Shown here piece by piece: positions 14-19,325 of a DNA stretch of 64,000 nucleotides; the stretch's first letter is position 1, and each line of letters opens with the position of its first letter. The notes beneath the pieces were generated by a model that saw nothing but the letters and a program-made list of their open reading frames with translations, did no database searches and had not been told where the DNA came from. Both the position numbers and the translations under genes were made by a program. Location: assembly GCA_029781865.1 (NCBI GenBank), contig JAKOVW010000054.1, forward strand, positions 248,001-312,000, given 5' to 3'. This DNA comes from Bacteroidota bacterium (lineage in GTDB: Bacteria; Bacteroidota; Bacteroidia; Chitinophagales; Saprospiraceae).

Positions 14-60
14 GTGGGTTTCACCCACTGGTAATTGAAGGGAAACCCTTCGGGTTTTTA
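14..60 (+). terminator. Tandem hairpins with T-tract
   Basis: A 6-bp stem (GTGGGT/ACCCAC, positions 14-28) is followed by a second one (AAACCC-TTC-GGGTTT, 43-57) that runs into a T-rich tract. The second has the form of a rho-independent terminator reading rightward. It would serve a plus-strand gene lying left of the window, which cannot be seen. Confidence 0.5.
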
Positions 61-244: not shown

Positions 245-272
245 TTCATTTTTCATTCTTCATTTTTAATTT
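245..272. repeat. Heptanucleotide repeat overlapping a gene end, TTCATTT type
   Basis: Four 7-bp units (TTCATTT, TTCATTC, TTCATTT, TTAATTT). The array encodes the last eight residues (KLKMKNEK) and the stop codon of the minus-strand amidohydrolase, so it has become part of the coding sequence. Confidence 0.8.
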
Positions 273-1538
273 ATCCACCACAACCTTTCCATCTTTCATT
301 ACCCACTTCACTCCTTTAATCACTGCGTTGATGTCTTTTGTTGGATCGCCATCTACAGCGACGATATCTGCAAAAAAACCGGGAGCTACTTGACCCAATT
401 CTTTTTCTTTACCAAGAAGTTCGGCACCATTTTTTGTGGCTGTGTTTAATGCTTCGAGCGGAGTCATGCCGGCTTTGACAAACCATTCCAGTTCGCGTGT
501 ATTTTCTCCGAAACCAGTGAACAGGGCATCCGAGCCCATTGCGATTTTGACATTCGATTGAACTGCCAGTTTTAAGGTTTCCAGGTTACGCTGGATGTAG
601 GCCTGCATATTTTTAATTGCTTCGGGGGTATATCCGTATTCATCATGGTGATCGATGTAATAACGGTTGTGATCAACAGTGGGTACATAGGTACAGTGAT
701 GCCTATTCATTAATTCAAAATCTTCCCGGTTTAATCCCGTGGCATGTTCGATGGATTCTGCACCTGCACGAATGGCATCACGTGCAGCTTCGGGTCCATA
801 CGAATGTATCGCTACCCGCTTACCGGCCTGATGCGCGATATCGCATGCGATTTTCATTTCTTCATAGGTGTATTGTTGCACACTTGTTACATCATCACCG
901 CTACCCGTGCTTGCATAAATTTTAATCCAGTCAACACCAGATGCGATTTCCTGGCGCGTCACTTTCATTACCTCATTGATATTTTCTGCCTTGCCGGGAT
1001 CCAGTTCGATATAATTTGGATCAATCGGATGACGGGAAACATGCAGACCATTTCCCGCGATAAATAATCTCGGACCTGTCATCGCTCCTCTGTTGATAAG
1101 CTCTCTCATTGCGATATCCAAGCCGTAGAATGAACCTAAATCTCTAACACTTGTCACTCCGCTTTCCAATGTTTTCCTTGCATTCTCTTGGGCGAGAAAG
1201 ACGATCACAGCCGGATTTAATTTATCTGCATCTCTCCAGGGATTGGTTCCGGGTGCTTTGTCCCAGTAATAAGTGATGTGGGTATGTGCGTCAATCAGAC
1301 CCGGTATGGCAGTCAGTGGACGCAAATCATTTACGGAAATGTTTTTTGGCAGACTTTTATCGTCCGTATAAATACCAACAATGTGATTGTCCTGAACAAC
1401 TACTGTTGCATTATTCATCATTTCACCTGTTGGACTTAAAACTTTACTGAAACGCCAGGCGGTAGATTGCGCCTCAGCACACTGAAGAATACTAAATAAG
1501 AATAATGTTTTCAGAATTTTAAATTTGAGTAGCTTCAT
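246..1538 (-). CDS. Secreted amidohydrolase (imidazolonepropionase/prolidase-like)
   Basis: A 430-residue metal-dependent amidohydrolase with an N-terminal signal peptide (residues 1 to about 23). The HxH metal motif is His85/His87 in GLIDAHTH, followed by the conserved GVTSVRDLG segment, a metal-lysine region (DWIKIYASTG), histidines in IHSYG and SIEHATG, and the catalytic Asp in AMGSDALF. The family hydrolyses cyclic amides or Xaa-Pro dipeptides; the substrate cannot be read from sequence. It is the last gene of the minus-strand SusCD/caspase block, 46 bp after the caspase gene, so it may process peptides that the system takes up or cuts. Its tail KLKMKNEK is encoded by a heptamer array. 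Family assignment is firm, role is inferred. Confidence 0.9.
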   Translation of the reverse strand: MKLLKFKILKTLFLFSILQCAEAQSTAWRFSKVLSPTGEMMNNATVVVQDNHIVGIYTDDKSLPKNISVNDLRPLTAIPGLIDAHTHITYYWDKAPGTNPWRDADKLNPAVIVFLAQENARKTLESGVTSVRDLGSFYGLDIAMRELINRGAMTGPRLFIAGNGLHVSRHPIDPNYIELDPGKAENINEVMKVTRQEIASGVDWIKIYASTGSGDDVTSVQQYTYEEMKIACDIAHQAGKRVAIHSYGPEAARDAIRAGAESIEHATGLNREDFELMNRHHCTYVPTVDHNRYYIDHHDEYGYTPEAIKNMQAYIQRNLETLKLAVQSNVKIAMGSDALFTGFGENTRELEWFVKAGMTPLEALNTATKNGAELLGKEKELGQVAPGFFADIVAVDGDPTKDINAVIKGVKWVMKDGKVVVDKLKMKNEK

Positions 1539-1584
1539 GGATTAAAATTTTATTTTATGAATTGAATATAATTTCACTTTGAAT

Positions 1585-4251
1585 TCATTTTTGAGTTTCA
1601 GGAAAATATCTTATCTTAATATTCTTGAAAAGAGGTGAATTCCTCAATTCCTTAAAAGCCGTTTCCTCCATAATTTTATCATAAAAAGGAAACAAGTTTT
1701 CCAATGCCTTTTGTAAATAATTTAATGCTTCGTCATTTAAATTAATTTTAGCCAGATAAATCGCCATACCATATTCTCCCCAATATCCCATTCGTCGGGC
1801 ATCAATAGATTTGATCAATTGCTCTTTTGCTTCGGGCATGCGGTTTTGATTCATTAAAAACAAGGCATATAAATAATGGGCTTCTTCAATAAAAGGAGGA
1901 CCATCCAGGCCATCACCACAAAATCGATAGTTTATTGCTTTATGAAATAATGAATCAGCCATACTATAGTTTTTCTCAATGAAGTAGCATTGCGCTAACC
2001 AGGCGTAAGTACCAATATAAGCTGAATTGGTTGACCAATGTTGTTTAAGCACTTCAAGAATTTTCATAAATGCCTGTTTGGCCTTTTGGATTTTACCCTG
2101 TTCGAAAAATACTTTCCCCTGCAACATATTCAAATGAACAGCTGGTATTTCGTCTTGATGCATTACAAAAAAACTATCAAGAATGGCCAAACTTATATTA
2201 TATTTTTTCTGATAAAAGTATGCTTCAGCTAAACACTCATTACAATTATTTCGAAAATCTATGGAATTAGCTAATTGAATAGTTTGCTTATATTTCCCTG
2301 TAGCAATCAAAGATTTTCCCAAAGCCCACTGAGCAAAGCTTGCTTTGGCTTCAAGTGCAATTGCTTTGCGAGCATAGATCTCTGCTTGCTTGAAATCACC
2401 ATCCATTTGAAAAAGCGTCTTGGCTAAAGTAGAATAGGCATTGAAGAGCTCCGGCTTTTGCTTAATCATGGCAAGAGAAATCTTTTTTGAATCTTCCGAA
2501 CGGTATTGCCATTGCCTGAGCCAGGAAAGCTTTTCTTCTGCCAAATAAGAATCTGGCCTTACATTATAAGCTTTTTCAATCCATGGTTCTGCCTTACACC
2601 CATTTTCCTGACAAAGATTAAACTCATAACCAATTTCCAATAATGGGCTTAGCCAGGTTGGTGCAAATTCACTAGCCCTTTCATTCCAATACTGAACTGA
2701 ATCTGATTTACAGGGTATCTTATCAGCATATAAATCAGCAATTGCATTGTATAAATAAGCAGCATTTGAATCCAGATTAACTGCCTTAAAAAGTTTTGAT
2801 TTAACTACATTGTCAAACGAATCAATTACCGAACGCCTTGCATTATCTGCGCGGACATTCCTTCTTATCAGATAAGCTTCAAAAAATAATTTCTTACTAC
2901 TTAAAGATTTAAATGCATAGTGCTTTAAACCTAAAAGTTCAATGGCTCTTTCTAAATATACAGGGTACTGACTATATTTTTCAGGATAATTATACCATTT
3001 GTTAAATTCATAAGGATCATCATCTAATAATGCATTCAAAGCCTGCTGAACTTCATCTTGCAATACAATTGCCAGATTTCGACGCATGAGATTAATTAAA
3101 GGTTCGAGCGATTTTTCTTTTTTCAATGATTCATATAAATCATTTGCGCAGGAATCTTTGGGTGACATTAATTTGTGTGATTCAATTGCGGCGAGAAACT
3201 GTTTGTATTTTTTCTGAACCGAAGAATCTGAATTGGCTAAATAAGCAGATTCCAATCCACGCATATTTGTAAGTACAAAAGCGATTGTTTCTTTTGACTT
3301 TGCTTTTTGAATTTCATTTTTATAATTCTCATCGACTTTGGCAACACCAGCCATGCGGTCTCCTACGGTTATCGGTATTTGCTGATGCGGTGCAGTAAGA
3401 CTTGGAACTCGCTCCTCGAGATATCGTCCGATCTCCATAAGGCTAACTGATTTGTCCTCATTTGCATCGGCCATACCATTTAATCCATCGATCAAAACCC
3501 AGGAAAATACTCCACGTCCATTACCCCATTCCCTACCCTCGAGTGAAAACTCATTTTGCTGGCAAGATAAAATCTTTACTTCATTCGCAAATTGTTGCGC
3601 AAGATTAGCATTGGTTATACCAGATCCATTAATTTTACTTCCAGCAAGTTTGCCCGCATGACAGGCATCCGCGATCATCATTACCTTTCCTTTTTTATCC
3701 AATGAAATCGTGGAGATTACAGATTGCAAATAATTCACCGGGCAAGCACCAGCTCCGTAAATTCTGGCGGGTGAATCATAGCATAATAAGAAACCCAATT
3801 GATCTCTCAATTTCGTTTCCACATCGCCATGTCCTGAAAAATAGATAATGGCCTGATCGCCTTCTTTTGTTTGTTCCATCAGCCAGTTTAATGCTTCCAT
3901 AAACCGTGCGGTCGTTGCTGAATCATTTACCAATAGAATAATATTTTCTTCCTTTACTTGCCCACCTGCCGGACTTCTCAGCCAATTGGCGAAAGCTCTG
4001 GCATCGCGATCCGCATATTGAAGATCAGGGATTTGAGGAGATTGGTAGTCGGAGATGCCGACGACGACGGCATAAGTAGAAGTTTTCAGTTGGCCGTTAG
4101 CAGTTGGCAGTTGGCTTATCGGAAAGATTGGTGTTGCGCCTTTTTGCGCAATACAATTAATGCTTTGTAACAAGAATATACCAACAGTAAAAATAATGGT
4201 TGATTTTATTCTTACTATCCTGCCTTTTGGTGAAAAGTTCATTTTATTCAT
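1585..4251 (-). CDS. Secreted caspase-fold protease with TPR repeats (copy 1)
   Basis: An 888-residue protein with a signal peptide (about residues 15-36) and a peptidase C14 (caspase-like) domain at about 56-300. The catalytic dyad is visible: His141 in YFSGHGD and Cys197 in IADACHAG. An EF-hand-like stretch (DANEDKSVSLME) follows, then a conserved segment around VQQALNALL shared with the second copy, then helical tetratricopeptide-type repeats over about residues 480-870. Such metacaspase-like enzymes usually cut after Arg or Lys; the target here is unknown. It lies about 115 bp downstream of a susD gene and 46 bp upstream of the amidohydrolase. Residues 46-57 are encoded by a heptanucleotide repeat placed exactly between signal peptide and caspase domain. 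Confidence 0.88.
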   Translation of the reverse strand: MNKMNFSPKGRIVRIKSTIIFTVGIFLLQSINCIAQKGATPIFPISQLPTANGQLKTSTYAVVVGISDYQSPQIPDLQYADRDARAFANWLRSPAGGQVKEENIILLVNDSATTARFMEALNWLMEQTKEGDQAIIYFSGHGDVETKLRDQLGFLLCYDSPARIYGAGACPVNYLQSVISTISLDKKGKVMMIADACHAGKLAGSKINGSGITNANLAQQFANEVKILSCQQNEFSLEGREWGNGRGVFSWVLIDGLNGMADANEDKSVSLMEIGRYLEERVPSLTAPHQQIPITVGDRMAGVAKVDENYKNEIQKAKSKETIAFVLTNMRGLESAYLANSDSSVQKKYKQFLAAIESHKLMSPKDSCANDLYESLKKEKSLEPLINLMRRNLAIVLQDEVQQALNALLDDDPYEFNKWYNYPEKYSQYPVYLERAIELLGLKHYAFKSLSSKKLFFEAYLIRRNVRADNARRSVIDSFDNVVKSKLFKAVNLDSNAAYLYNAIADLYADKIPCKSDSVQYWNERASEFAPTWLSPLLEIGYEFNLCQENGCKAEPWIEKAYNVRPDSYLAEEKLSWLRQWQYRSEDSKKISLAMIKQKPELFNAYSTLAKTLFQMDGDFKQAEIYARKAIALEAKASFAQWALGKSLIATGKYKQTIQLANSIDFRNNCNECLAEAYFYQKKYNISLAILDSFFVMHQDEIPAVHLNMLQGKVFFEQGKIQKAKQAFMKILEVLKQHWSTNSAYIGTYAWLAQCYFIEKNYSMADSLFHKAINYRFCGDGLDGPPFIEEAHYLYALFLMNQNRMPEAKEQLIKSIDARRMGYWGEYGMAIYLAKINLNDEALNYLQKALENLFPFYDKIMEETAFKELRNSPLFKNIKIRYFPETQK
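4087..4114. repeat. Heptamer array inside the caspase gene, CAGTTGG type
   Basis: Four 7-bp units on the plus strand (CAGTTGG three times, CCGTTAG once) lie in frame in the minus-strand caspase gene and encode SQLPTANGQLKT just after the signal peptide. Because 3 x 7 = 21, the peptide has a 7-residue period. The paralogous caspase gene has four perfect units at the same place. Confidence 0.85.
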
Positions 4252-4337
4252 GCAATTACTTTCTCCGGAAAACCAAACCCCTTTATGTAGGTTCAGATCT
4301 TTAAATTGTTTGTCCTGTAATTATTTATATAAGATCC

Positions 4338-4365
4338 TTCATAATTCATAATTCATAATTCATAA
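4338..4365. repeat. Heptanucleotide repeat abutting susD stop, TTCATAA type
   Basis: Four identical TTCATAA units end one base from the stop codon of the minus-strand susD gene. The array fills a large part of the susD-caspase spacer. Confidence 0.8.
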
Positions 4366-4366
4366 T

Positions 4367-5815
4367 CTATTTCGCCCACCACATTTTATCTCCATAAATT
4401 TCAAATCCCGGAAAAATGTGTTGCCTTGATTGTGCACTCTGCAAATTTGTACCATTTGTTGGTCCTTCGATTAGCGGATATGCGTAACGGTACGGTACAC
4501 CTTTGCCCTTAAATATAGAATTCACTGGCTCTTGAATTTCCGATGGATATCCCGTACGACGGTATTCCGTATAAGCTTCATTTTCATTGAGAAAAAGCAA
4601 TAACCATTTTTGCGTCATGATCGCCTGCAGATGATTGGTTTGCCACATCGAATCAGCAGTTGCTCTACTTGTTAGTGTTGTATTCACATTATAAATTTGG
4701 AGAGCTGCTTCAATTCCGTCCATATAAGCCTGCTTGTCATCCAACAATTCGGCTTTAATGAATAAAAGTTCAGGATAAGATATGGCTATCATAGGCAGTT
4801 TCGGATTTTTCAATAATGCATTGCTGAAGCTGCTATACTTAGTAATATCAACTGATGTTGGAAATGGAGGACATGCCCCGCCATTCATGAAACCAATATA
4901 ATCCCCATTTGCATTGGGGCTTAACCAAAATGAAAGTCTTGGGTCATTCCATTTATTCAGGATGCCCACCAACGTTTTACTGGGAAGCATGTAGAAAGGC
5001 GATAGAATATACCACTCATAAATTGGGGCAATGTAGGGCAAGGAACCGACAGGTTCAAGGCTTGCATTGTCAACATTGGATTCAAACAATGGATAAGCCT
5101 TTGGATCAGAGAACATCGTTATCAATTCTTGTCTGGCTGAAGTATCCAGATGCTTATACCGGTTTAATATGCGAATCCTCAATGTGTTTGCAAACTTTTT
5201 CCATTTTAAGAGATCTCCATAAAAAAGGACATCACCCCGTCCTAATGGATCACCGCTTAAATTAAATGTATCTGAAGCTTGTTTAAGTTGTCGATTTAAG
5301 GAATGATAAATGCTGTCCTGCGAATCATATACCGGTTGGGCAAATTGATTGATTTGTCCGGCCTGTGAAAATGGGATATCGCCATACAGGTCAACTAAAT
5401 AATTAATGAGATAAGCTCTCAGCACGAGCGCAGCCGATCGCATATTGTTAGGGCAATCAGGATCCGAAAGAATATTTTGAAGATCTGCAAAAGGATCTGT
5501 ATATGCGGCTTTCCAAATAAATTCAAAATCCGGAAAACTAGATCTATAAATGTCCCAGCCCAGCCCACAATTAGTTTCTGCAAAATGTTGATTCCATATT
5601 CCCGCCGGTCGTGGACCCCAGCCTCCAAAAGCAACAGTATATATCGTAAGAGCTTCATTAAATCCCTTTGATATGGAAGAGAGAAGTAAATTCGTCAAGG
5701 GAATTTTTTCAGGGGCATTGGGATTGGTATTGATTTCCTCAAAGTTCTTGGTACAGGATACTGATAAACTCAAGACAGTCAAAAGAACTATTTTATGAAT
5801 GATAGATTTTTTCAT
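4367..5815 (-). CDS. SusD/RagB-family lipoprotein (copy 1)
   Basis: A 482-residue surface lipoprotein of the SusD-like type-2 group. The start at 5815 is chosen because it yields a lipoprotein signal peptide ending in a lipobox (SLSVSC); a longer in-frame extension would overlap susC. Family features are the N-terminal FEEINTNPNAPEKI segment, the LLSSISKG helix, repeated TPR-like helices and the WKKFANTLRIRILNR helix. SusD proteins cap the SusC channel and deliver the ligand. It begins 25 bp after the susC stop, so the two are co-transcribed. The ligand is unknown; type-2 SusD members often accompany peptide or unknown substrates rather than starch. Confidence 0.92.
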   Translation of the reverse strand: MKKSIIHKIVLLTVLSLSVSCTKNFEEINTNPNAPEKIPLTNLLLSSISKGFNEALTIYTVAFGGWGPRPAGIWNQHFAETNCGLGWDIYRSSFPDFEFIWKAAYTDPFADLQNILSDPDCPNNMRSAALVLRAYLINYLVDLYGDIPFSQAGQINQFAQPVYDSQDSIYHSLNRQLKQASDTFNLSGDPLGRGDVLFYGDLLKWKKFANTLRIRILNRYKHLDTSARQELITMFSDPKAYPLFESNVDNASLEPVGSLPYIAPIYEWYILSPFYMLPSKTLVGILNKWNDPRLSFWLSPNANGDYIGFMNGGACPPFPTSVDITKYSSFSNALLKNPKLPMIAISYPELLFIKAELLDDKQAYMDGIEAALQIYNVNTTLTSRATADSMWQTNHLQAIMTQKWLLLFLNENEAYTEYRRTGYPSEIQEPVNSIFKGKGVPYRYAYPLIEGPTNGTNLQSAQSRQHIFPGFEIYGDKMWWAK

Positions 5816-5840
5816 GATCGTAAAATTTAAGGTTGAACGT

Positions 5841-8800
5841 TTAAAATTCCACATTGAGTTTGAAACCAATCGTGCGCGTGGGAGGATGTTGCGCAACCTC
5901 AAAACCCTGATCTCCATTGTTTGCAGTGAATTGGAATTCCGGATCAAAATGTTTTTGTCCAGTATATAAAAACAATACATTGCGCATATACAATCCTACA
6001 TTCATGCTTTTGAGATGTAATTTTGAATAAATGCGTTCGGGTAAGATCCAGCTTACATTGATCTCTCTTAACTTTACAAAGCTTCCATCGAAAATGGAAC
6101 GTGCGAAACTTCCACCTCCAAAAGGATAATAATGTGCATTCCAGGTCTGTGCTGAAACCTTTACATCATTTGGACGGTAAGTGCCATCACCATTGTCGAT
6201 GACACCATCGAATGCATATCCGTTTTTAATTTCATCCACAGTGTTCCTGCCTTCTAAGGTTTCTTCGGCAAGTCCCTGTGATCGCAGAAAGATGTATGAC
6301 CAGGATAAAAACTTATTGCCGAATCGTCCATCGATGAGAAAACTCAGACTGAAATCTTTGTATTTAAATGTATTGCTGATGCCACCCGTCCATCGTGGAG
6401 TGATGGTACCTTGTTTTACATTGCCAGCAGGATCGACCTGATCCAGTCCGTCTTTCAAAATCAATTTGCCTTCCGCATTGCGCAGGGGTTGCGTACTGTA
6501 GATCGAACCATATTCTTCTCCTTCACGTGCTACTACTAAACAACCACCATCATTGCCCAATACAATGGCATCAACGCCTTTTGGCAAATTATAAACTTTA
6601 GACCGGTTGCGTGCCCAATTCAAAGTGACTGACCAATTAAAATTTCTGTTGACAATCGGAGTACCCGTTAATTGCAATTCGATACCCGTATTTTGCACGG
6701 TACCTGCATTGAGAATATGCGTTGCATAACCCGTTGCCGGACTTACATCCACCGGTAAGATTTGATCGCGCGCGCGGCTATCATACCATGAAAGGTCAAG
6801 ACCCAGACGGCGATTGAATGCAAGAAATTCAACACCGGTTTCAAAAGAAGATTTGATTTCCGGTTTTAATGCAGCGTTGGGAAAGATATCAGGTACGGAA
6901 TAAGTAGGTATCGCATTGAAAGGTACATTGGCCGCTAGCACCTGGCGCAATCGATACGGATCCGTATCACTTCCAACCTGTGCCCAGCCTGCGCGAACTT
7001 TCAGAAAATCTATTTTATGCGAAAGATGCAATGCATCAGATAAAATCAAACCCAGATTTGCAGATGGATAAAAATAAGAGTTGGATTCTGTTGGCAATGC
7101 ACTCGACCAATCATTGCGTCCCGTAAGATCAAAGAATAACCAGTTGTTATATCCAATTGATGCTGATGCATACATGGAATTAATTCGCTTTTGCGAATTG
7201 AAGGTAGTTACTTTGGCATTGCCATCTGAATTGGACACATTAAAAATGGAAGGTTGAACCAATGCCGGCAAGACCACTGAATTTGATCTGAAGGTTTGAT
7301 CCAAACGATTTGCGCCGGCGGTAGCCAATAAACTGATGTGATCACCGAGTGAATGTTTTGCTGTTAAAAGAATGTCTGCATTTCTTTCATTCACAAAAAA
7401 ATCATCATCCTGAAAGGATCCGTGTCCCCAAACTGTCCAGTCATTTTGAATTTCATGATGTTCTCTGTAAAAATCTGTGCTGATCCGGCCCGTTACTTTT
7501 AACCAATCTTTTACATCATAGGTAATTGAGTAAAATCCATTTACCCGATCACGATTGAGTGGTTTCAACTGGCGGTAGACATCCCAAAATGGGTTGACAT
7601 CGTATAAGAAGTTGTAATCTCTTCCATATTGATCTTTTGTATTCCAATTATTTCGAAGATCTCGCCAGTCGACCTGTTGTCCGTTGAACAATGCGAGGTA
7701 GAAGAACCCACCAGCATAGCCGATACCTGGTCTGTTTTTGCTATCGGTACGGATATAATTTATATTTCCATCAGTGTGCCATTTTTTAGAAAGTTCATTA
7801 TTAAAACTAAGATTGAATGAATTGCGCTGCAACTCAGTATTCGGTATCATTCCTTTTTGCAAATAATTGGTGTAGGAGAATCGAAGATTGCCATGATCGC
7901 CATTCGATGTAATGGCAATGTTGTTCGTGATGTCTAGACCTATATCCAGGCTATTCGGAATTGGAGGTGCCGCTTTCCAGGGTTGGTGCTTACCCGTATA
8001 TTGATCGATGAATTGTCCTTCTCCGGGTTCATCGATTATTCCATTGCCATCATTGTCTATACTATCTTTTTCATTGATATGATAATCAAATGCAGGCCCC
8101 CAGCTCTCACCCGCATTATCGTTTAAATTACCCGATGCCGTACCACTGCCATCCACATATTTAAATTGTTGATTAGAACCTTGGCCATACTTCGTTTGCA
8201 AATCCCAAAATCGCAGCGTACTCGTAAAACCAATATTGGCAGAATAACTAACACCCAAACCCTTGGTTGATTTTGACTTTGCGGTTTTCGTTGTAATTAG
8301 AACTACTCCATTGGCAGCACGACTCCCATAAAGTGCAGTTGCGGCTGGTCCCTTTAATACGGAAACATTGTCGATGTCATCTGCACTGACATCACTTAAG
8401 GCATTCCCCCAATCGATACCTCCATACAGTCCCAATGCCGAAAAACTAGAATTGTCTATGGGCACGCCATTCACCACAAAGAGTGGCTGATTGTTGCCAG
8501 AGATCGATGAATTGCCGCGAATGACAACCCGCGCCGATGCACCTACCTGGCCCGCCGCAGAAATCACCTGCATTCCTGCAACCTTGCCTTGCAGAGTGCT
8601 CAATAGATTTTGGTCCCTGTTATTTGCGAGATCTTCACCATTTAATTTCTGAACCGAATATCCCAATGACTTTTTTTCTCTATTAATTCCTAGCGCCGTT
8701 ACAATGGTTTGTGACAATTCCAAACCATATTCCAATTTTACTTCGACATCTCCAGAAATTCGTTCAATATTTAGTTCAGTGGTTTTAAATCCAACGTAAC

Positions 8801-9014
8801 TCACTAGCAAGGCCGTTGCAGTTGCCGGTACTTCGATTTTAAAATTTCCATTGGCATCAGACAATACAGCTGTTTGCGTATTTTTAATTTGGATAACGGC
8901 TCCTGACAATGGCTGGCCTTCATGATCTCTGATGATGCCTTTGATTGTTTTTTGCGAGTGTAATTGAATACCTGCAAGAAAAATCAGTAAGAGACTGAAT
9001 GTATATTTTTTCAT
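5841..9014 (-). CDS. SusC/RagA-family TonB-linked outer membrane transporter (copy 1)
   Basis: A 1057-residue TonB-dependent transporter: signal peptide (1-20), CarboxypepD_reg-like domain (about 22-100, TIKGIIRDHEGQPLSGA), plug domain (about 110-245, with VVIRGNSSISGNNQPLFVVNGVPIDNSS), then a 22-strand barrel ending in an aromatic-rich strand (FKLNVEF). A calcium-site-like DNDGNGIIDE motif lies in an extracellular loop. SusC proteins import ligands handed over by SusD, driven by TonB. It heads the second module: susC, susD, caspase, amidohydrolase. Upstream is a 281-bp spacer with nested inverted repeats, which may hold its own promoter. Confidence 0.95.
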   Translation of the reverse strand: MKKYTFSLLLIFLAGIQLHSQKTIKGIIRDHEGQPLSGAVIQIKNTQTAVLSDANGNFKIEVPATATALLVSYVGFKTTELNIERISGDVEVKLEYGLELSQTIVTALGINREKKSLGYSVQKLNGEDLANNRDQNLLSTLQGKVAGMQVISAAGQVGASARVVIRGNSSISGNNQPLFVVNGVPIDNSSFSALGLYGGIDWGNALSDVSADDIDNVSVLKGPAATALYGSRAANGVVLITTKTAKSKSTKGLGVSYSANIGFTSTLRFWDLQTKYGQGSNQQFKYVDGSGTASGNLNDNAGESWGPAFDYHINEKDSIDNDGNGIIDEPGEGQFIDQYTGKHQPWKAAPPIPNSLDIGLDITNNIAITSNGDHGNLRFSYTNYLQKGMIPNTELQRNSFNLSFNNELSKKWHTDGNINYIRTDSKNRPGIGYAGGFFYLALFNGQQVDWRDLRNNWNTKDQYGRDYNFLYDVNPFWDVYRQLKPLNRDRVNGFYSITYDVKDWLKVTGRISTDFYREHHEIQNDWTVWGHGSFQDDDFFVNERNADILLTAKHSLGDHISLLATAGANRLDQTFRSNSVVLPALVQPSIFNVSNSDGNAKVTTFNSQKRINSMYASASIGYNNWLFFDLTGRNDWSSALPTESNSYFYPSANLGLILSDALHLSHKIDFLKVRAGWAQVGSDTDPYRLRQVLAANVPFNAIPTYSVPDIFPNAALKPEIKSSFETGVEFLAFNRRLGLDLSWYDSRARDQILPVDVSPATGYATHILNAGTVQNTGIELQLTGTPIVNRNFNWSVTLNWARNRSKVYNLPKGVDAIVLGNDGGCLVVAREGEEYGSIYSTQPLRNAEGKLILKDGLDQVDPAGNVKQGTITPRWTGGISNTFKYKDFSLSFLIDGRFGNKFLSWSYIFLRSQGLAEETLEGRNTVDEIKNGYAFDGVIDNGDGTYRPNDVKVSAQTWNAHYYPFGGGSFARSIFDGSFVKLREINVSWILPERIYSKLHLKSMNVGLYMRNVLFLYTGQKHFDPEFQFTANNGDQGFEVAQHPPTRTIGFKLNVEF

Positions 9015-9153
9015 AGAAGTATGATTTTTATTTTCAATTTATTATTATCAGTTGTATGATATTTTTTTATTAAAATATGTACCTTAATACTATTGATATT
9101 TTTATCCTTTTATTCATTATTTCACTTTGATATCATGCGCCATGAACCCTCCC

Positions 9154-9246
9154 AAATTCGCCGATTAAATTTGTCTATATAACTTTATTTCACTGGCGAA
9201 TTTGACCTCCCTTATTGCTTCACTACAAGCTATGCTCAAGGGAGGT
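9154..9246. repeat. Nested inverted repeats between the two SusCD/caspase modules
   Basis: Two perfect 9-bp inverted repeats lie side by side: AAATTCGCC (9154-9162) with GGCGAATTT (9195-9203), and ACCTCCCTT (9205-9213) with AAGGGAGGT (9238-9246). They form successive hairpins between caspase copy 2 and susC copy 1. They could be a terminator, an mRNA-stabilising structure or a dispersed intergenic repeat; there is no clear T-tract. Confidence 0.55.
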
Positions 9247-9293
9247 GAAGAAATTGTTCGATCATTAAAGTCTACTCTATATCATGTTACAAT

Positions 9294-9328
9294 AATTATT
9301 CATTATTCATTTTTAATTTTTCATTTCC
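9294..9328. repeat. Heptanucleotide repeat overlapping caspase gene end
   Basis: Five 7-bp units (AATTATT, CATTATT, CATTTTT, AATTTTT, CATTTCC). They encode the C-terminal residues NEKLKMNNE and contain the stop codon of the minus-strand caspase copy 2, like the array at the amidohydrolase end. Confidence 0.7.
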
Positions 9329-11965
9329 TCCAAAGTGTTTTTTCATTAAATCCTTAAACCGTTTTGTCATTCTGATTTTTTCAAACAATGGCTCTTGTAA
9401 TATAGGATCTGAAACCGGGTAATATCTATCCAATGATTTTTCTAAAAAATCCAAGGCAATTTTTTGGTCTCCGTGTTTTGAATAATATTTCGCCAGACCG
9501 TAATAACCTTCATACCCAAGAGGCATCCAGTCAATTGCTTTATTATAGAATATTATAGCTTCGGAGTCGCGACTTTGTTGAAGCAAGAAATCACCATACA
9601 TCGCGTCTGCAATATCATATCCATAAAATATAGTAACTGGAAAATGAAGCGCTGATTTAAAAAGACTATCCGCTTTTTGATAATTACCTTTTCTATTTTC
9701 CAATTCACCTAACCAACTCCTGCCCAAAATCGCGGCAATCTGCGGAGCTGGATCAATATTTATTCCTTTTTCTAAAAGTTGTTGGGCTTTTGTGTAATTC
9801 CCGTTGTATAATGCAATTTTTCCTGCCAATACATACGAATTAGCTATAAAATCCATTGATGAAACCTGCGATTCCATCACCTGTTTGGCATAATCCAGGG
9901 CTTTGTCAAATTTTTTATTTAAAAAATAATACTCTCCTAACTCATAGTAAATATCATTTACATTTACAGATGCAGTTCGTAAGCTTTGATCTTTGTTGTT
10001 TAGCTCAATGGCTTCATTCACTCGTTTTGTACTAATAAGTGCTTTAAAGTACCAGAACCAGGCCCAATTGTGTGCATTCGGTTCTATTTCGAGTGCATGT
10101 TTAGCATATTTAAATACATTATCCCAATCTCTCATTTCGCCATGCGTTTGGGTTAATGTCCCCCACGCATTAAATAAATTGGGTTTAGCCTGAATCAATT
10201 TCAAGCAAATAGAATCAGCTTCTTTATATCGATGATGCTTTTGCATAACCCATGACAATAAAAGATTCATCATATATGAATTTGGTTTATGGACAAGTGC
10301 ATTACGAATTATCTCTTCAGCTCTTGATGGCTGGACCTTTGCATTTAGAAAATCATCCGCTAAATCGTTATAGGGTATCAACCAATCCGGTGCCAATTCA
10401 ATCGCTTTATTACAATAAATTTCAAGTGAATCCTTCGAAATATCATGTTGGTTGCGATATAATATTCCGAGTGCATGATAAACATATGCCGCGTCTGGGG
10501 CATATGCTATTGCTTCCAATAATAGGGATTTTGCTTTCAGTCTCAACGAATCCCGTTTACCAGCGTCTTCTTCTGCTGCGAGTTTTATTTTAAATAACAA
10601 ATACGCTTCAAAATATTTCTGTTGTGAATATAAAAGTGGATAACTGTAATGATCTTTTCCCATCAGCTCAATGGCCCGCGCCAGGTATTTTGGGTACTCT
10701 GAATATTTGTTTGGATTAAAAAGCCAGTTGTTGTATTCATACGGATCATCTGCAAGTAAGGCATTCAATGCTTGTTGCACCACATCCTGAAGCGTTGCGG
10801 CATAATTTCTCCGCATGGCAGCATGAAGTGCCTTTAAATCCTGAATGCTATTAAGATGATCAAACAATAAATCGGCACAGATAATATTTTGTGAATCTTT
10901 ATTAAAAAAGAAATTTTTGGATTTTAATGCGGCCTTAAACGCGTTGTATTGACTGCGGGTCGCTTCATCCACCTTCATGAGTGTTACTTCTTCAATACCC
11001 CGGACATCCTGATAGGCCAGAATCCTACTATCTGAATACGCCTTCTTCTCCAACATAGCCAGTGCATTCAGGTCCACTTTTGCAATCGATTCATATTTAT
11101 CACCAATAACTACAGGTATCTGTTTCATTGGATTCACTTCTTTACTGACATGCTCTTCCAGATAGTTATTCAGTTCCATTAAACTAATGATTCCATCTGA
11201 ATTCTGATCTGCATATCCGTAAAGTCCCTGAACCAGAAAATAACTGAATACGCCACGACCACCACCCCATTGCTCGCCTTCCATACTATATTCATTTGGC
11301 TGGCAAGACAAAATTTTAATTTCATTTGCAAACTGATTTGCCAGACTTTGTGCTGTAGCCTGCGAACCGCCGACGCTGCTTCCTGCTAATTTTCCGGAAT
11401 GACAGGCATCAGCAATAATGAGCGTTTTCACTTTGTCATCAGAAAGTGTATTGACAACATCTTGCAGATCCGTCAGATGAAATGCACCTGCCGCATAATT
11501 ATTCGGAGGAGAGTCATAGCATAATAAATAACCGCGGTTGTATTTTGTCTTTGTTTCGATATCACCATGTCCGGAAAAATAAATGATCGCCTGATCACCT
11601 GTCTTGCAATTATCGATCAACCAATCCAATGCCGCGCCAAATTGTGCACGCGTTGCTTTTTGATTTGTAAGTAATTTAATATTGTCATCTTGCACACTTC
11701 CTCCACCAGGTGATTTCATCCAATCTACAAAAGCAAGCGCATCGCGGTCAGCGTATTTTAAATCGGGAATGTCTTTGTCCTGGTAGTCAGAGATACCGAC
11801 GACGACGGCGTAGGTAGAAGTTTTCAGTTGGCAGTTGGCAGTTGGCAGTTGGCTCTTCGGTGATATTGGCGTTGCTCCTTTTTGACTATAAATATTATCA
11901 ATTAAAAGGCATAATACAAAGATGATCCATGTAATGACATTTAATATTTTTAGTGAATCATTCAT
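9296..11965 (-). CDS. Secreted caspase-fold protease with TPR repeats (copy 2)
   Basis: An 889-residue paralogue of the protein at 1585-4251, collinear over its whole length. Signal peptide at about 1-27; caspase domain at about 48-290 with His133 (YFSGHGD) and Cys188 (IADACHSG); an intact EF-hand-like loop (DQNSDGIISLMEL); a VVQQALNALLADDPYEYNNW segment; then TPR-type helical repeats to the end. Residues 38-49 (SQLPTANCQLKT) are encoded by four perfect CAGTTGG heptamers. The gene follows susD copy 2 by about 105 bp and precedes susC copy 1. Catalytic residues are kept, so an active secreted cysteine protease is expected; substrate unknown. Confidence 0.88.
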   Translation of the reverse strand: MNDSLKILNVITWIIFVLCLLIDNIYSQKGATPISPKSQLPTANCQLKTSTYAVVVGISDYQDKDIPDLKYADRDALAFVDWMKSPGGGSVQDDNIKLLTNQKATRAQFGAALDWLIDNCKTGDQAIIYFSGHGDIETKTKYNRGYLLCYDSPPNNYAAGAFHLTDLQDVVNTLSDDKVKTLIIADACHSGKLAGSSVGGSQATAQSLANQFANEIKILSCQPNEYSMEGEQWGGGRGVFSYFLVQGLYGYADQNSDGIISLMELNNYLEEHVSKEVNPMKQIPVVIGDKYESIAKVDLNALAMLEKKAYSDSRILAYQDVRGIEEVTLMKVDEATRSQYNAFKAALKSKNFFFNKDSQNIICADLLFDHLNSIQDLKALHAAMRRNYAATLQDVVQQALNALLADDPYEYNNWLFNPNKYSEYPKYLARAIELMGKDHYSYPLLYSQQKYFEAYLLFKIKLAAEEDAGKRDSLRLKAKSLLLEAIAYAPDAAYVYHALGILYRNQHDISKDSLEIYCNKAIELAPDWLIPYNDLADDFLNAKVQPSRAEEIIRNALVHKPNSYMMNLLLSWVMQKHHRYKEADSICLKLIQAKPNLFNAWGTLTQTHGEMRDWDNVFKYAKHALEIEPNAHNWAWFWYFKALISTKRVNEAIELNNKDQSLRTASVNVNDIYYELGEYYFLNKKFDKALDYAKQVMESQVSSMDFIANSYVLAGKIALYNGNYTKAQQLLEKGINIDPAPQIAAILGRSWLGELENRKGNYQKADSLFKSALHFPVTIFYGYDIADAMYGDFLLQQSRDSEAIIFYNKAIDWMPLGYEGYYGLAKYYSKHGDQKIALDFLEKSLDRYYPVSDPILQEPLFEKIRMTKRFKDLMKKHFGGNEKLKMNNE
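11825..11852. repeat. Heptamer array inside caspase copy 2, CAGTTGG x4
   Basis: Four perfect CAGTTGG units on the plus strand, in frame in the minus-strand caspase gene, encode part of SQLPTANCQLKT between the signal peptide and the catalytic domain. Confidence 0.88.
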
Positions 11966-12046
11966 GAATATAAGTAATTTTCATTCTGAATAAATAAATT
12001 TGATTTTCATTTCTTGCCCATATTGATTGGTTATTCCGATGATATC

Positions 12047-12074
12047 AACTCATAACTCATCACTTCTAACTCAT
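12047..12074. repeat. Heptanucleotide repeat overlapping susD stop, AACTCAT type
   Basis: Four 7-bp units (AACTCAT three times, CACTTCT once). The last unit contains the TGA stop codon of the minus-strand susD copy 2. Confidence 0.75.
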
Positions 12075-13588
12075 TTTACGTCCCACCACAATCTCGTTGT
12101 TAGTTTATCAAATCCAGGTCCACCTAACATCAAAACTGCATTTTGATAATTTGCACTGTTTAGACTTTGCTCATCAGAAGGATAGATTAGTCGAAGAGGA
12201 GCAATTTTTGTATCGTCAAAATTGATGGATCCACCCACAGGCAAAATAAATTTCTTAAAATCCAATCGTCTCCATTCGCTCCAGGCCTGAATGCCTTGCA
12301 TAAAAAGAGCCAGCCATTTTTGTACTCCGATTTTTTGTTTCCAATCACCGGTTGCAAGATTATAATTGATTGTAGGTTGAGCCAGATAACTATCAATAGT
12401 AGTAGCGTCAGTTATTCCCCATTCTTTCATGGACGCACGAATGCCTTCATTATACCATTGCTCTGCGCTTCCACCAACATTCCATCCTCTTTCTTTAGCT
12501 TCAGCTAGAATAAAACATACTTCGGCATAATTCATCAAACAGGCATTGGCATCTGGACGAAGCACATCATACGGTTTAAAATCACTTCTACCCTGATTTA
12601 GTATAGCAGCTCCACTAGGTAGTGAATATAGTTGTGAACCCTGACTTGCCGCTACATTACTATTTTGGCCATATGGTCTTCCAAAATATCCACCACCCTG
12701 TGCGCGTTCATCTGCCCAAACATACAATCTCGGATCGTTAAGTGGTTTTAAAGTACTATCAATGAGCACATCAGAAAGACACAAAACTGCAACGCCACGT
12801 GATAACCATATTTGAAAAATCGGGTTATTATTTGGTGTTGAGTTCAGGTATTTAAAATTTGCATTATCATTATTACTATTAAATGCATTCTGATATCCAT
12901 TTTCTATTTCGGTTTGAGATATTTTCGCTTCCACATCACTCATGCGCATTGCTATGCGAAGTATTAGTGAATGCGCAAACTTTTTCCATTTAGCAACATC
13001 GCCATTATAAATAATATCCGCTCCACCATAACTATCATAGGTAGCATCCATCATTGATATAGCGGTTTTCAATTCACCAATGATACCTAAATATATAACT
13101 CTCATACTGTCGTATTTAGGAGCGCGATTATTGGCGCCTTCCAAAGCATCTTTATAAGGCACCGCACCAAAAATATCACTAACATATTCAAATGTATAAG
13201 CTCTCAGTACCGTGGCAATAGCAATTTTATTATTGTCTTCCGCTAGCTTGAGACCAGGTTTATTATGCACAATGTTTACTATTCGTTCAAGATCCTTTAA
13301 CGTAACTGAATAAATAGACTGAAACCATCCATTTTGATCTTGAGGCCTTATATCATACCTGCTTATATCAGTATAATTACTCTGTGCCCAGGTTTGCGAT
13401 AGAACTTCAGGTAAAGCTGAGTTTTGAAAAACATTATCTGCCAATATTTTTTCACAGTTAGTAAGTAAAACTTCCGGAGGAACAATTTGTGGATTGTTTG
13501 GATCTGAGTTTATATCACCGAAATCTTTTCCACAAGAATAAATACAAACTAGAAATATAATTGCACAGAAATAAATTCTTTTTTTCAT
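12071..13588 (-). CDS. SusD/RagB-family lipoprotein (copy 2)
   Basis: A 505-residue SusD-like lipoprotein with a signal peptide ending in a lipobox (CIYSC, Cys19) and the family's FGDINSDPNNPQIVPPEVLL start. Later features match copy 1: the AYTFEYVSDIFGAVPY region, the WKKFAHSLILRIAMR helix and the KIGVQKWLALFMQGIQAWSEWRR helix, ending LWWDVK. It starts 44 bp after susC copy 2 and is followed by caspase copy 2, so the module order is identical to the downstream set. Role: surface ligand capture for the partner SusC. Confidence 0.93.
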   Translation of the reverse strand: MKKRIYFCAIIFLVCIYSCGKDFGDINSDPNNPQIVPPEVLLTNCEKILADNVFQNSALPEVLSQTWAQSNYTDISRYDIRPQDQNGWFQSIYSVTLKDLERIVNIVHNKPGLKLAEDNNKIAIATVLRAYTFEYVSDIFGAVPYKDALEGANNRAPKYDSMRVIYLGIIGELKTAISMMDATYDSYGGADIIYNGDVAKWKKFAHSLILRIAMRMSDVEAKISQTEIENGYQNAFNSNNDNANFKYLNSTPNNNPIFQIWLSRGVAVLCLSDVLIDSTLKPLNDPRLYVWADERAQGGGYFGRPYGQNSNVAASQGSQLYSLPSGAAILNQGRSDFKPYDVLRPDANACLMNYAEVCFILAEAKERGWNVGGSAEQWYNEGIRASMKEWGITDATTIDSYLAQPTINYNLATGDWKQKIGVQKWLALFMQGIQAWSEWRRLDFKKFILPVGGSINFDDTKIAPLRLIYPSDEQSLNSANYQNAVLMLGGPGFDKLTTRLWWDVK

Positions 13589-13632
13589 AATTATACAAAT
13601 TAATGTAAGTTAATTAAGTCATTTAATATTAC

Positions 13633-16600
13633 TTAAAACCTAAAATTCAAATTACATCCTATAGATCGTGTTGAAGGAAGAGCAGCTCCTTCAAAACCAT
13701 AAATATTGTTCGTGCTTGTTGCCATGTCGGGATCGAGGTTTGGTAAGTTTTTGTAAAGAATTGCTAGATTACGACCAACTATGGAAATAGTAGCGTCTAT
13801 AATTTTTACTTTTGCTAACCATCTTTTTGGAATTGTATAGCTTAATGAGACCTCTCTTAATTTTATAAACGATCCATCATATAAATCCTGTTTATTGATA
13901 TAATATCCACTTGCATGAAATTTATAATAATCATAATTTATTTTTTTTGTATTTTTTTGCCCAGAACTTATATAAGTGTCGTCAAGCAAGGTCGCTGTGT
14001 TTCCACCTCCATCCAAAATAGGATTGCCGTTACTATCGAGTACTGCTAGTATACCGTTATACAATATCCCATTTTCTCTAATGCCTCCTTCTGCTGTTTC
14101 AGCAAAAAGCCCGGTGACTTTTCCATTAGTATTTGTTATTGAAAAAACATCACCTCCTTTTCTAAAGTCTATGAATACTTTTAAACTTAAACCTTTCCAA
14201 CTAAATGTGTTTGTGAAGCCTCCGATAAAATCTGGCGTAATATTTCCAATGGGCATTACACCTGGGGATACAAGATAATATCCAGTATTGGGATCTATTA
14301 ATTTATTGCCTGCATTGTCGAACAAAAAATTAGTGCCAAGTATTGTGCCATAAGACTTTCCAATAAGTGCATTAATTGAAACAACGTCCGAAGCAAGAGG
14401 TAAATTAGTAATTGATGGATCATTAGGAAGTATTGATTCTATTTTGTTTCTGTTCAGGCCATAATTAAAAATTATCTCCCACTTAAAATCATGTTTGTTA
14501 TAAGGAATGGCACGCAATACAAGTTCGATTCCTTTGTTGCTGATTTCCCCGGCATTTACATACTGATAATCAAATCCAGTTGTTGTAGATGTATGCAGAG
14601 GGATGATCTGATTGTTGGTCATTCCTGAATACAGTGATATGTCAATACCAAGTCTATCATTAAAAAAACGAAGGTCAGATCCTATTTCTATAGAAGAAGT
14701 TTGTTCGGATTTAAGTTGTTCATTATTCAAAGTATTAGATAAGGTATAATTTGGAATATTACCAAAACTTGGATTGTGATTATAGGTTGTAAAAATGTTA
14801 TATGGATCAGTATCACCGCCTACTTTAGCTAAGCCTATGCGAAATTTACCAAATGACAATTTTGGAATCTTAAAATCTTCCGAAAACACATATGCAAGCG
14901 AGGCGGAAGGGTAAAAATATCCATTCGCATTATCAGGCAATGTGCTTGACCAATCTTGACGCCCGGTTAAGTCCAAAAATAGCTTGCTAGCAAATCCAAA
15001 ACTAACACCTCCAAATAAACTTTCTATTTCCTTTTGATACAATGTATTTTCAATAATTGGCCGGTCTACTGAATTTTGCAAATTATAAATATCAGGAATA
15101 TTCATTCCCCCCACAGTAGCTCCAAAATTTCGCACTGTTTTTCTCCAGAGTTTATTTGCACCTCCAAATACACTGACAGATAGATTATCTCTAATGTATT
15201 TATCCGCTTTTACAATTAAATCTGTATTTGTCTCATTGACATGATATTTATCCAAAGTATATTGTGGTAGAAGCAAACTTCCAAATGCAATACGCTCCTC
15301 TCTGAATTCATCATAAAAATCAGTTAAAACTCTTCCTGTTGCACTTAGCCAACTATTGAATTTATAGGTGAGTCCTACATTCCCAAAAACCCGATCCCTT
15401 CCATCCGTTTCATAATTTTTATATCTAACCCAATATGGGTTATCCCAGTATTGAGGCCGCGGATTATCGGCACTCTGCCGATTCCAAGTTCGCATTGATC
15501 CATCTGGGTTTTCATAACTCATTAGATCAGCAAATCGCAAATCAGTATGCCACCATTGAGACAAACTAGCTAATGGATTAAAACCACCTCTAAAATCAAA
15601 TGTAACTGCTGCGCGCCCTAAGCTGTTAGATTTCACATAATTAGCACCCACAAAAGCCTGTAATGAGGGTGTTAAATGGAGCGAGCCATTGAAACTTATA
15701 GTGTTTCGCTGCATATTTGAGTTTGGGAAAATGCCTTTTTGATCGTAACGGTTATAAGAAAGGCGAAATGAAGAAATTTCATTACCTCCATCTATTGCAA
15801 TGTTTTGGCTACTGGTTACCCCCGTTTCAAAATATTTTATTGGATTATCTCCAACTTGCCATAAACGGCTTTTCCCAAAATGCGAAGTATCCCAATTATC
15901 CCAGGAGTTCCAATCACGAAAAAATAATTTATTTTGATTGGCACCAAATCCATTCGGGAAACTAAACTGATAATGAAGACTATCCCATTTCAAACTTTCC
16001 AGATGTTTAAAATGCTGATCAGTAGATGTAGCAAATCGCACGCCACTACTTTCGTCAACTCCATATATTGGAACCAAATCAAAAGTTTGGTAGGTCGAAT
16101 TTATAGATCCATCAGGATTATATGTGATCAACTTCGTTTTGTAAAAGCCCGAATTATCAGAATAACCACGAGGAAGCAGATCAACACCTCCTCCGTATTG
16201 ATTTTGAATTTTAGGAAAAACGGCGACATTATCAAAAGTCACACTTGAATTGAAAGTAATTCCAATGCCGTGCTTTGATTTACTTCCTTTTTTTGAAGTG
16301 ATTATAATCACGCCATTTGCACCACGCGAACCATAGAGAGCGGCGGCGGCCTGGCCTTTCAAGACATTGATATTTTCAATATCATTTGGATTAATATCCT
16401 GAATAGCATTGCCATAATCATTTTGACTTTGATAAATTGCACCACTACCATTTCCGAAGACCTGAGGTAAATTGGTAAAATTTGAATTGTCCATTGGAAT
16501 TCCATCAACAACAAACAATGGTTGATTCTCACCATTTATCGAGCGAATTCCACGGATTGTAATTCTGGATGAGCCACCCATATTTCCACCCGCAGAACCC

Positions 16601-17049
16601 ATTACAGAAACACCTGCCGCACGTCCTTCTAATTCATTTACAAAATTGCTACTAATAACTTGTGAAATATCTTCGCTATTAATTCTGGATGTTGCATATC
16701 CTAGGGATTTTTCCTCTCTTCTTATTCCCAATGCAGTTACAATCGCCATTTCTAATTGAACGCCTTTATTTAAAATCACGTCAACTTGGTTAAAAATAGT
16801 AAGTTCGATTTCTTTAGATTCAAATCCAGTATAACTAATTACAAGTATGTTTTTATCACTTGGAACAACAAGCTTAAACTTTCCTTCAAGATCCGAAACA
16901 GTTCCTATAGTCGTGCCCTTTACAATAATATTAGCGCCTATAATTCTCCCTCCAGCAGGATCGCTGACCGTTCCCTGAACCGTTCTTTGTGCATAAATTA
17001 AATTATAGGTGCAGAGTAGTGTTAAAAAAGCAAGTACGTACTTTTTCAT
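13633..17049 (-). CDS. SusC/RagA-family TonB-linked outer membrane transporter (copy 2)
   Basis: A 1138-residue TonB-dependent transporter: signal peptide (1-20), CarboxypepD_reg-like domain (about 22-100), plug domain (about 105-260, with ITIRGIRSINGENQPLFVVDGIPMD and the VLKGQAAAALYGSRGANGV segment), then the beta-barrel to a terminal LNFRF. It is the first gene of the minus-strand block and probably its transcription start. It differs clearly from copy 1 in the barrel, so the two modules are likely to recognise different ligands although the architecture was duplicated. Confidence 0.95.
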   Translation of the reverse strand: MKKYVLAFLTLLCTYNLIYAQRTVQGTVSDPAGGRIIGANIIVKGTTIGTVSDLEGKFKLVVPSDKNILVISYTGFESKEIELTIFNQVDVILNKGVQLEMAIVTALGIRREEKSLGYATSRINSEDISQVISSNFVNELEGRAAGVSVMGSAGGNMGGSSRITIRGIRSINGENQPLFVVDGIPMDNSNFTNLPQVFGNGSGAIYQSQNDYGNAIQDINPNDIENINVLKGQAAAALYGSRGANGVIIITSKKGSKSKHGIGITFNSSVTFDNVAVFPKIQNQYGGGVDLLPRGYSDNSGFYKTKLITYNPDGSINSTYQTFDLVPIYGVDESSGVRFATSTDQHFKHLESLKWDSLHYQFSFPNGFGANQNKLFFRDWNSWDNWDTSHFGKSRLWQVGDNPIKYFETGVTSSQNIAIDGGNEISSFRLSYNRYDQKGIFPNSNMQRNTISFNGSLHLTPSLQAFVGANYVKSNSLGRAAVTFDFRGGFNPLASLSQWWHTDLRFADLMSYENPDGSMRTWNRQSADNPRPQYWDNPYWVRYKNYETDGRDRVFGNVGLTYKFNSWLSATGRVLTDFYDEFREERIAFGSLLLPQYTLDKYHVNETNTDLIVKADKYIRDNLSVSVFGGANKLWRKTVRNFGATVGGMNIPDIYNLQNSVDRPIIENTLYQKEIESLFGGVSFGFASKLFLDLTGRQDWSSTLPDNANGYFYPSASLAYVFSEDFKIPKLSFGKFRIGLAKVGGDTDPYNIFTTYNHNPSFGNIPNYTLSNTLNNEQLKSEQTSSIEIGSDLRFFNDRLGIDISLYSGMTNNQIIPLHTSTTTGFDYQYVNAGEISNKGIELVLRAIPYNKHDFKWEIIFNYGLNRNKIESILPNDPSITNLPLASDVVSINALIGKSYGTILGTNFLFDNAGNKLIDPNTGYYLVSPGVMPIGNITPDFIGGFTNTFSWKGLSLKVFIDFRKGGDVFSITNTNGKVTGLFAETAEGGIRENGILYNGILAVLDSNGNPILDGGGNTATLLDDTYISSGQKNTKKINYDYYKFHASGYYINKQDLYDGSFIKLREVSLSYTIPKRWLAKVKIIDATISIVGRNLAILYKNLPNLDPDMATSTNNIYGFEGAALPSTRSIGCNLNFRF

Positions 17050-19269: not shown

Positions 19270-19325
19270 CTGTTATGCTTTTACCTGACAATAACTCAAA
19301 TTTAAAATAAATTCATTTCATTCCC

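Follow-up and report, generated by a model that had tools for sequence, protein, structure and literature searches.

Introduction

Two described systems in which a SusCD-type importer is associated with peptidases come closest to the locus reported here. RagAB of Porphyromonas gingivalis is described as a SusCD-type importer that takes up peptides cut by the organism's own gingipains (PMC11817032), which are listed under peptidase clan CD, family C25 (PMC4357240), and are stated to reach the surface via the type IX secretion system (T9SS) (PMC5053529). The mucin locus BT4240-50 of Bacteroides thetaiotaomicron is presented as a SusCD locus with an M60-like peptidase, BT4244 (PMC11992087). Here we report an array of genes in a 64,000-nucleotide stretch of DNA from a Saprospiraceae bacterium (assembly GCA_029781865.1, contig JAKOVW010000054.1, positions 248,001 to 312,000; hereafter the window), in which two SusCD pairs are each followed by a gene for an exported protein that joins a caspase domain to tetratricopeptide repeats (TPRs). 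We give an even chance to the reading that this is a protein- or peptide-acquisition operon using metacaspase-type endopeptidases, and we prefer peptide import with periplasmic digestion by the caspases over explanations based on a recombination hotspot, a regulatory protease or a conflict system.

Like RagAB, the locus has a SusC/SusD-type pair, and its caspases belong to the same peptidase clan as the partner gingipains of RagAB. In contrast to the C25 gingipains, which travel via the T9SS, the window's enzymes are C14 proteins with TPRs that are encoded beside SusCD and have no T9SS tail model among their listed matches. As in BT4240-50, a peptidase is encoded within a SusCD locus; however, that locus combines a metallopeptidase with glycosidases, whereas here we find caspase homologues and no listed glycosidase family. 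The proteins resemble prokaryotic metacaspases and orthocaspases (C14B) in their PF00656 domain, His/Cys dyad, candidate acidic pocket residues and a fold nearest to MALT1 and metacaspases, but differ from them in being exported, in their long C-terminal TPR solenoid and in their SusCD neighbours.

The roles of prokaryotic caspase homologues are largely open, with discussion leaning toward cell death. A survey of these proteins gives the highest number, 28, for Haliscomenobacter hydrossis, and its operon section makes no mention of SusC or SusD (PMC3501461). Our literature search, whose coverage took in few subscription journals, returned no report joining SusCD with caspase homologues or metacaspases; protein-degrading Saprospiraceae are on record (PMC9304909). 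The recurring row of importer and caspase genes described below suggests that some environmental Bacteroidota may use caspase-type enzymes on protein food rather than for cell killing. It offers a concrete and testable role outside cell death, together with genes to assay, and would extend SusCD loci, commonly interpreted as serving glycan uptake, by an enzyme class new to them.

Organisation of the array

The seven genes that had been predicted here do lie on one strand, the minus strand, at the positions first assigned, in the order susC2, susD2, caspase-TPR A, susC1, susD1, caspase-TPR B and amidohydrolase. The first, susC2 (13633..17049), encodes a SusC/RagA TonB-linked outer-membrane protein of 1138 residues (TIGR04056 at 564.9 bits, with TIGR04057); susD2 (12071..13588) follows after 44 bp and encodes a SusD-like lipoprotein of 505 residues (PF12771 at 359.4 bits) with the lipobox IYSC, read by eye; caspase-TPR A (9296..11965; 889 residues), 105 bp further on, matches PF00656 at 70 bits and carries TPRs. 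The second set begins 281 bp after caspase A with susC1 (5841..9014), whose SusC/RagA product has 1057 residues (TIGR04056 at 557.6 bits, with TIGR04057), and continues after 25 bp with susD1 (4367..5815), encoding a SusD-like lipoprotein (PF12771 at 232.6 bits; lipobox by eye), and after a further 115 bp with caspase-TPR B (1585..4251; 888 residues, PF00656 at 60.5 bits, TPRs). An exported amidohydrolase of 430 residues (246..1538; PF01979 at 152 bits) is encoded 46 bp beyond caspase B. The SusC, SusD, caspase and amidohydrolase matches all lie above curated Pfam or TIGR cut-offs (368.25 bits for TIGR04056, 27 bits for PF12771 and 21.4 bits for PF00656; that of TIGR04057 is also exceeded by both SusC proteins), which confirms the identities given to both sets. 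Each SusC has a SusD-family lipoprotein encoded directly downstream (44 and 25 bp), the arrangement of a SusCD uptake pair, and the order of the genes is operon-like.

The original prediction needs correction at several points. Its short spacers hold for the gaps of 44, 105, 25, 115 and 46 bp but not for the 281 bp before susC1, and the start of susD1, placed at 5980, is better assigned to the ATG at 5815. Nor does the array end in the amidohydrolase: 259 bp beyond it, past the window's left edge, begins another intact caspase/TPR gene, the third, whose product of 895 residues has the His/Cys dyad (G000:C37:247986-245299, where G000 is the window's own genome, of 4.52 Mb in 93 contigs, and C37 the contig of which the window is part). 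Of the two TGA triplets noted at this gene, one is the stop codon that ends it and the other lies shortly after. No glycoside hydrolase or lyase family was listed for the seven genes in the Pfam search, so that by this listing the array lacks the enzymes by which a polysaccharide utilization locus is recognised.

Linkage of SusCD and caspase genes

Co-directional susC-susD-caspase rows occur at eight places in seven genomes, namely twice in the window and once each in G005, G007, G245, G318, L161 and L164. Among 96 caspases in 27 genomes, six have a susD as the immediately preceding gene on the same strand. If genes were placed at random, at a density of 0.87 per kb and with either strand equally likely, 0.059 would be expected; G000 alone contributes two where 0.005 are expected. 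The 27 genomes were chosen from 63 and include every G genome known to be linked, the 36 others (42 caspases) having no linked case; when all 63 genomes (137 caspases) are taken, with 24 SusC guessed for each uncounted genome, the six cases compare with 0.185 expected. For the SusC counts, split matches were counted once in G005, G007 and G245, two genomes have at least 24, and others were counted from the best 24 candidates; the caspases counted are those retrieved, for example 14 of the 18 C14 matches of G000. The six cases come from two genera and three SusCD lineages and so cannot be treated as independent of one another; counted as three lineages they give P values of 3e-5 (27 genomes) and 9e-4 (63 genomes). 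Chance neighbourhood as the sole cause is ruled out by this excess.

The linkage is also clustered on the caspase tree, where it requires 12 changes, compared with a mean of 19.2 and a minimum of 17 in 1000 shuffles, a contrast that is inflated by neighbours from the same locus and drawn on a tree with some weak inner branches. The window copies fall in a sub-clade of 16 leaves, 10 of which are linked; it also contains the third G000 caspase, which belongs to the locus and is cut off by the window edge. For this test the third caspase of L039, cut at its start, was labelled unlinked (relabelling it keeps the 12 changes), and L061_8710, in the G318 array, was scored unlinked due to a gap; in L193, one gene separates susD from the caspase. 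The proposal that SusCD and caspase genes are associated in a non-random way is therefore upheld by the counts and the tree together. In the preferred reading, the SusCD pairs would capture peptides and import them across the outer membrane.

The caspase/TPR proteins

The catalytic dyad is intact, as had been predicted. His133, Cys188, Asp75, Asp186 and Cys221 are invariant in all 58 aligned homologues and Ser131 is kept in 55; the EF-hand-like calcium loop, also noticed originally, is nearly fixed across the same set, with D in 56, N or D in 58, D in 57 and E in 58 of the 58 sequences at its successive positions. By sequence, PF00656 together with the His/Cys dyad places the proteins with C14B metacaspase/orthocaspase-type peptidases; their scores of 76.8 and 72.9 bits for the NCBIfam model caspase_w_EACC1 (NF047832) lie under its 140-bit cut-off. 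An AlphaFold2 (AF2) model of caspase A (mean predicted local distance difference test (pLDDT) 86.5, predicted TM-score (pTM) 0.82) consists of a caspase domain and a long helical solenoid. Since the whole model gave TPR proteins among its best 50 Foldseek matches, the caspase domain was modelled alone (pLDDT 91.7). The best 50 of the 84 solved folds that it then matched (E≤0.001) comprise MALT1, plant and fungal metacaspases and Geobacter GSU0716, with query TM-scores of 0.51-0.68, so that within these 50 the nearest folds are those of metacaspases and paracaspases.

The motifs D186-x-C188 and S131-x-H133 align with the metacaspase TbMCA2, Asp186 and Ser131 corresponding to its Asp211 and Ser156 (numbering derived from a chain offset of 20 plus the paper), and Asp75 is matched to its Asp95 solely by position in the first helix. 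Residues C92, D95, S156 and D211 are given as the potential S1 pocket of TbMCA2, and metacaspases and paracaspases (C14B) as cleaving after Arg or Lys (PMC4357240), and the same specificity is therefore predicted for the window caspases.

The signal peptides of the caspases were read by eye, and no lipobox was seen in the same way. No T9SS sorting-domain model was found among the Pfam and NCBIfam matches (E≤1e-3) of the two caspases and the amidohydrolase (for the latter, among the best 25 of 29 NCBIfam matches). The lack of a T9SS tail model and of a visible lipobox makes the periplasm the probable site of the caspases, which are thus better called exported than secreted, the term first applied to them, and would cut after uptake. 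We propose that they act there as Ca2+-dependent metacaspase-type endopeptidases cutting after Arg or Lys. A [K/R]-G-A motif following the signal sequence was considered as a general feature of the family and dropped, being present in just 71 of 157 proteins.

The two halves of the protein evolve very differently. Across the 58 homologues, mean pairwise identity falls from 60.0% for the caspase domain through 39.9% for the linker to 24.8% for the TPRs, a pattern that would suit a single catalytic core adapted to many partners; caspases A and B share 59.5% identity over their caspase domains and 30.2% over the TPR part. The fast-evolving solenoid may accordingly pick or hold a partner or substrate. 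Partner recognition by a large and diverging TPR part would also suit a switch, with the caspase processing envelope proteins such as SusD or SusC or sensing an imported ligand, and action on a small number of specific targets is common among caspase homologues. We regard such a regulatory or maturation protease as unlikely, given the many paralogues per genome (18 C14 matches in G000), most of them without adjacent SusCD.

Tandem arrays of diverging paralogues, some adjoining TPR-CHAT proteins, also bring to mind a conflict or self-destruction system, in which exported caspases would target competitors, predators or the cell itself and SusCD would serve as entry port or sensor. Fratricide is raised as a possibility in the survey of prokaryotic caspase homologues (PMC3501461), and all three caspases of the locus match the PADLOC model 'caspase' at 40-64 bits. 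However, these matches span 158-183 of 453 positions, at most the initial 40% of the model, the Pfam and NCBIfam matches of the seven genes pointed to no known immunity gene or delivery tail, and SusCD with a peptidase-like amidohydrolase in one row suit nutrition better; we consider a conflict role very improbable.

The amidohydrolase

The amidohydrolase aligns over nearly its whole length with the Cc2672 L-arginine carboxypeptidase (3mtw; E 1.8e-54), including the regions of what we take to be the metal-ligand motifs. It differs in that 9kov (record name trum-mut) scores slightly ahead of 3mtw among its top solved-structure matches, and the Xaa-Pro dipeptidase model NF051886 is missed, with 278.7 bits against a 500-bit cut-off. 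In the peptide-import reading, this exported enzyme would act on the caspase products, either as a dipeptidase or as a carboxypeptidase that may remove C-terminal Arg or Lys; the latter would fit the predicted caspase cuts. Caspase genes flank the amidohydrolase gene in G000, G005 and G007.

Divergently oriented upstream of the susC operon, within 17938-20204, are two genes that both score below cut-off: one for an arginine/agmatine-antiporter-like permease, at 338.6 bits where 574 are required, and one resembling dimethylargininase/arginine deiminase, at 87.1 of 414 bits. No comparable genes were noticed upstream of the G005 and G007 loci, where 2 to 5 kb could be inspected, so these arginine-related neighbours lend weak support.

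Origin of the SusCD pairs

The original prediction took the array for a duplication of the full susC-susD-caspase module, from which it argued that the three proteins work together. The two pairs are too divergent for this, with SusD1 and SusD2 28% and SusC1 and SusC2 34% identical, and they stand far apart in a tree of 24 SusCD pairs; whole-module duplication is thereby ruled out. SusD2 is instead closer to the SusD of five other genomes (50-53% identity), and SusC2 to orthologues in G005, G007, L161 and L164 (56-58%) and in G245 (56%), whereas the best relative of SusD1 is a SusD of G314 at 40% and that of SusC1, among the loci compared, reaches 37%. Only caspases A and B are near paralogues, 42% identical overall. 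The linked SusCD2 pairs form one clade of five, starred in the tree, with 46-58% identity between distant members and the caspase-free pair of G245 as sister. Two of these five (L161 and L164) came from a caspase query, so that the sample is biased and the clade shows the common descent of linked pairs, not the frequency of linkage. A grouping of SusCD1 with a third SusCD lineage (G245, G318, Ww119) involves long branches and is not trusted.

In G005 and G007, of the window's genus, the order is susC-susD-caspase-caspase-amidohydrolase-caspase, from which the window differs by the insertion of susC1-susD1 between the first and second caspase. These comparisons would be explained most simply if a SusCD pair of unrelated origin had been inserted, perhaps together with its caspase, into a pre-existing SusCD2-caspase row. 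G000 has 18 C14 matches, three SusC (TIGR04056) and three SusD-like_2 proteins (PF12771, the sole SusD family searched), and two of its three SusC genes sit in this array.

In a rival reading, the locus would be a recombination hotspot, in which repeat-rich caspase arrays expand and shuffle and capture nearby SusCD by position, with no common task. The positions around the amidohydrolase hold different caspase paralogues in G000 and in G005 and G007, and the SusCD pairs stem from two or three unrelated lineages. On the other hand, the caspase lies behind susD on the same strand at all eight places counted, which is the usual position of an enzyme gene; the SusCD2 link spans pairs that are just about half identical; and the count exceeds random placement some 30- to 100-fold. 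We therefore hold a hotspot rather unlikely, if less so than a regulatory protease, and continue to prefer peptide import with periplasmic caspase digestion.

Repeats and expression signals

The hotspot gains real weight from heptanucleotide repeats in spacers and in coding sequence. The 184 kb of G000 sequence examined contain 16 heptanucleotide runs, whereas five mononucleotide shuffles, which make a lenient control, gave none. Such runs occupy all four spacers that separate the five caspases at the beginning of contig C2 (L040), and in the window they lie in the spacer between susD1 and caspase B (4338..4366), in a further array spacer (203-236) and, in frame on the minus strand, within the caspase A linker that joins signal sequence and caspase domain (11825..11853; 4.1 copies, 100% match). 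The loss or gain of one unit in this linker would shift the frame, and on/off switching is thus possible. It may be, though we advance this tentatively, that Saprospiraceae protein-utilization loci hold tandem exported caspase/TPR paralogues as exchangeable, substrate-choosing enzymes for SusCD importers, with the heptanucleotide repeats allowing change of copy number and possibly on/off switching.

The seven genes may be read as a single transcript. No terminator-like pattern was found on the minus strand in the spacers from susC2 to the amidohydrolase, and one such stem (14..28, minus strand; a pattern match) lies between the amidohydrolase and the third caspase/TPR gene; terminator-like stems as a whole (18 observed against 12.5 in shuffles, standard deviation 4.0) are not clearly commoner than expected. 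The consensus of the Bacteroidota -7/-33 promoter was nowhere matched in full ahead of the genes tested, and a single -7-only match was seen at 17101, before susC2. A longer heptamer/28-mer tandem repeat (AGGAGCT, 13.7 copies) lies elsewhere in the window, between listed genes, at 58428-58522.

Loci without linkage and spread of the family

Several observations weigh against peptide acquisition as the common task of these genes. After removal of copies that share the same C-terminal 400 residues, 188 unique long caspases remain: 21 are linked to SusC or SusD in a same-strand run; 101 are resolved on the upstream side and have no SusCD there, 73 of them being resolved on both sides; and 66 lie too near contig ends to be judged. 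As most caspases do not stand beside SusCD, SusCD is not needed for the task of these proteins, whatever it may be. The 21 include two linked by a weak SusC match (L176, 81 bits; omitted from the tree label test) and the partial or edge-cut SusC of L211, L226 and L178, while L159, L160, L162 and L169 come from the same genomes as G005, G007, G318 and G245 and were not counted anew. In L178 and L211 the SusC follows the caspase at a contig end, and in L174, L198 and L205 SusCD lies on the opposite strand near caspases, an arrangement that was not counted as linked and that speaks for the hotspot. The nearest relative of caspase B, L048 in G005, stands alone with both sides resolved, as does another member of the sub-clade, L064 in G226.

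Seen from the SusCD side, three SusD in 298 genomes, apart from the window's own, are more than 50% identical to SusD2, two of them linked (in the window's genus) and one, in G245, unlinked. All 14 SusCD loci chosen by SusD similarity or from the same genomes (L058, L065-L073, L076, L077, L156 and L157, the G245 pair included) lack a caspase of this class in the stretch compared. Taken with the retrieval of L161 and L164 through a caspase query, these 14 loci slightly lowered our estimate for peptide acquisition and slightly raised that for the hotspot. By name, the matches of SusD2 in the PDB are glycan-binding or unassigned, and, apart from those of G000, G005 and G007, no linked locus was seen to have an amidohydrolase, several of these other loci being cut by contig edges. 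The original prediction held that caspase homologues without SusCD neighbours in relatives would mark the linkage as chance; such homologues do prevail in the family at large (101 of 188), yet in the window's sub-clade 10 of 16 are linked. The co-occurrence in other genomes that it proposed to test is thus found above chance, with most family members nonetheless standing apart from SusCD.

Relatives of caspase A occur in 61 of 298 family genomes at E≤1e-60 (best 3 candidates per genome) and in 7 of 395 phylum genomes, including the window's own, at E≤1e-40 (best 2 candidates per genome). The 69 named loci with caspase relatives divide into 36 from Saprospiraceae, 5 from other Saprospirales, 21 named only as Bacteroidetes, Bacteroidota or Bacteroidia, and 7 from other phyla. 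These last, six loci of Thermoanaerobaculia MAG.385 and one of Leptospiraceae HKST-UBA05, are probably mis-binned Saprospiraceae contigs; the loci in suspected records are L158, L175, L189, L211, L225, L226 and L195.

Other features

An IS1-type transposase gene lies in the window at 53314-54144, its 71.9 bits falling under the family cut-off of 100, and a plasmid comparison matched 1 of 72,556 records, weakly. Tandem caspase-TPR arrays also occur free of SusCD, with five genes on contig C2 of G000 and ten in G004 (L040, L042 and L052-L053; G000 C2 and C8, G004 C19). TPR-CHAT proteins are encoded beside caspase genes at L055:86-3094, L051:8373-10493 and L193:3-3239, the last next to a SusCD-caspase locus. 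The C2 array further includes a C14 protein of 1165 residues (L040:15500-18997) whose start, by eye, resembles WD40-type repeats.

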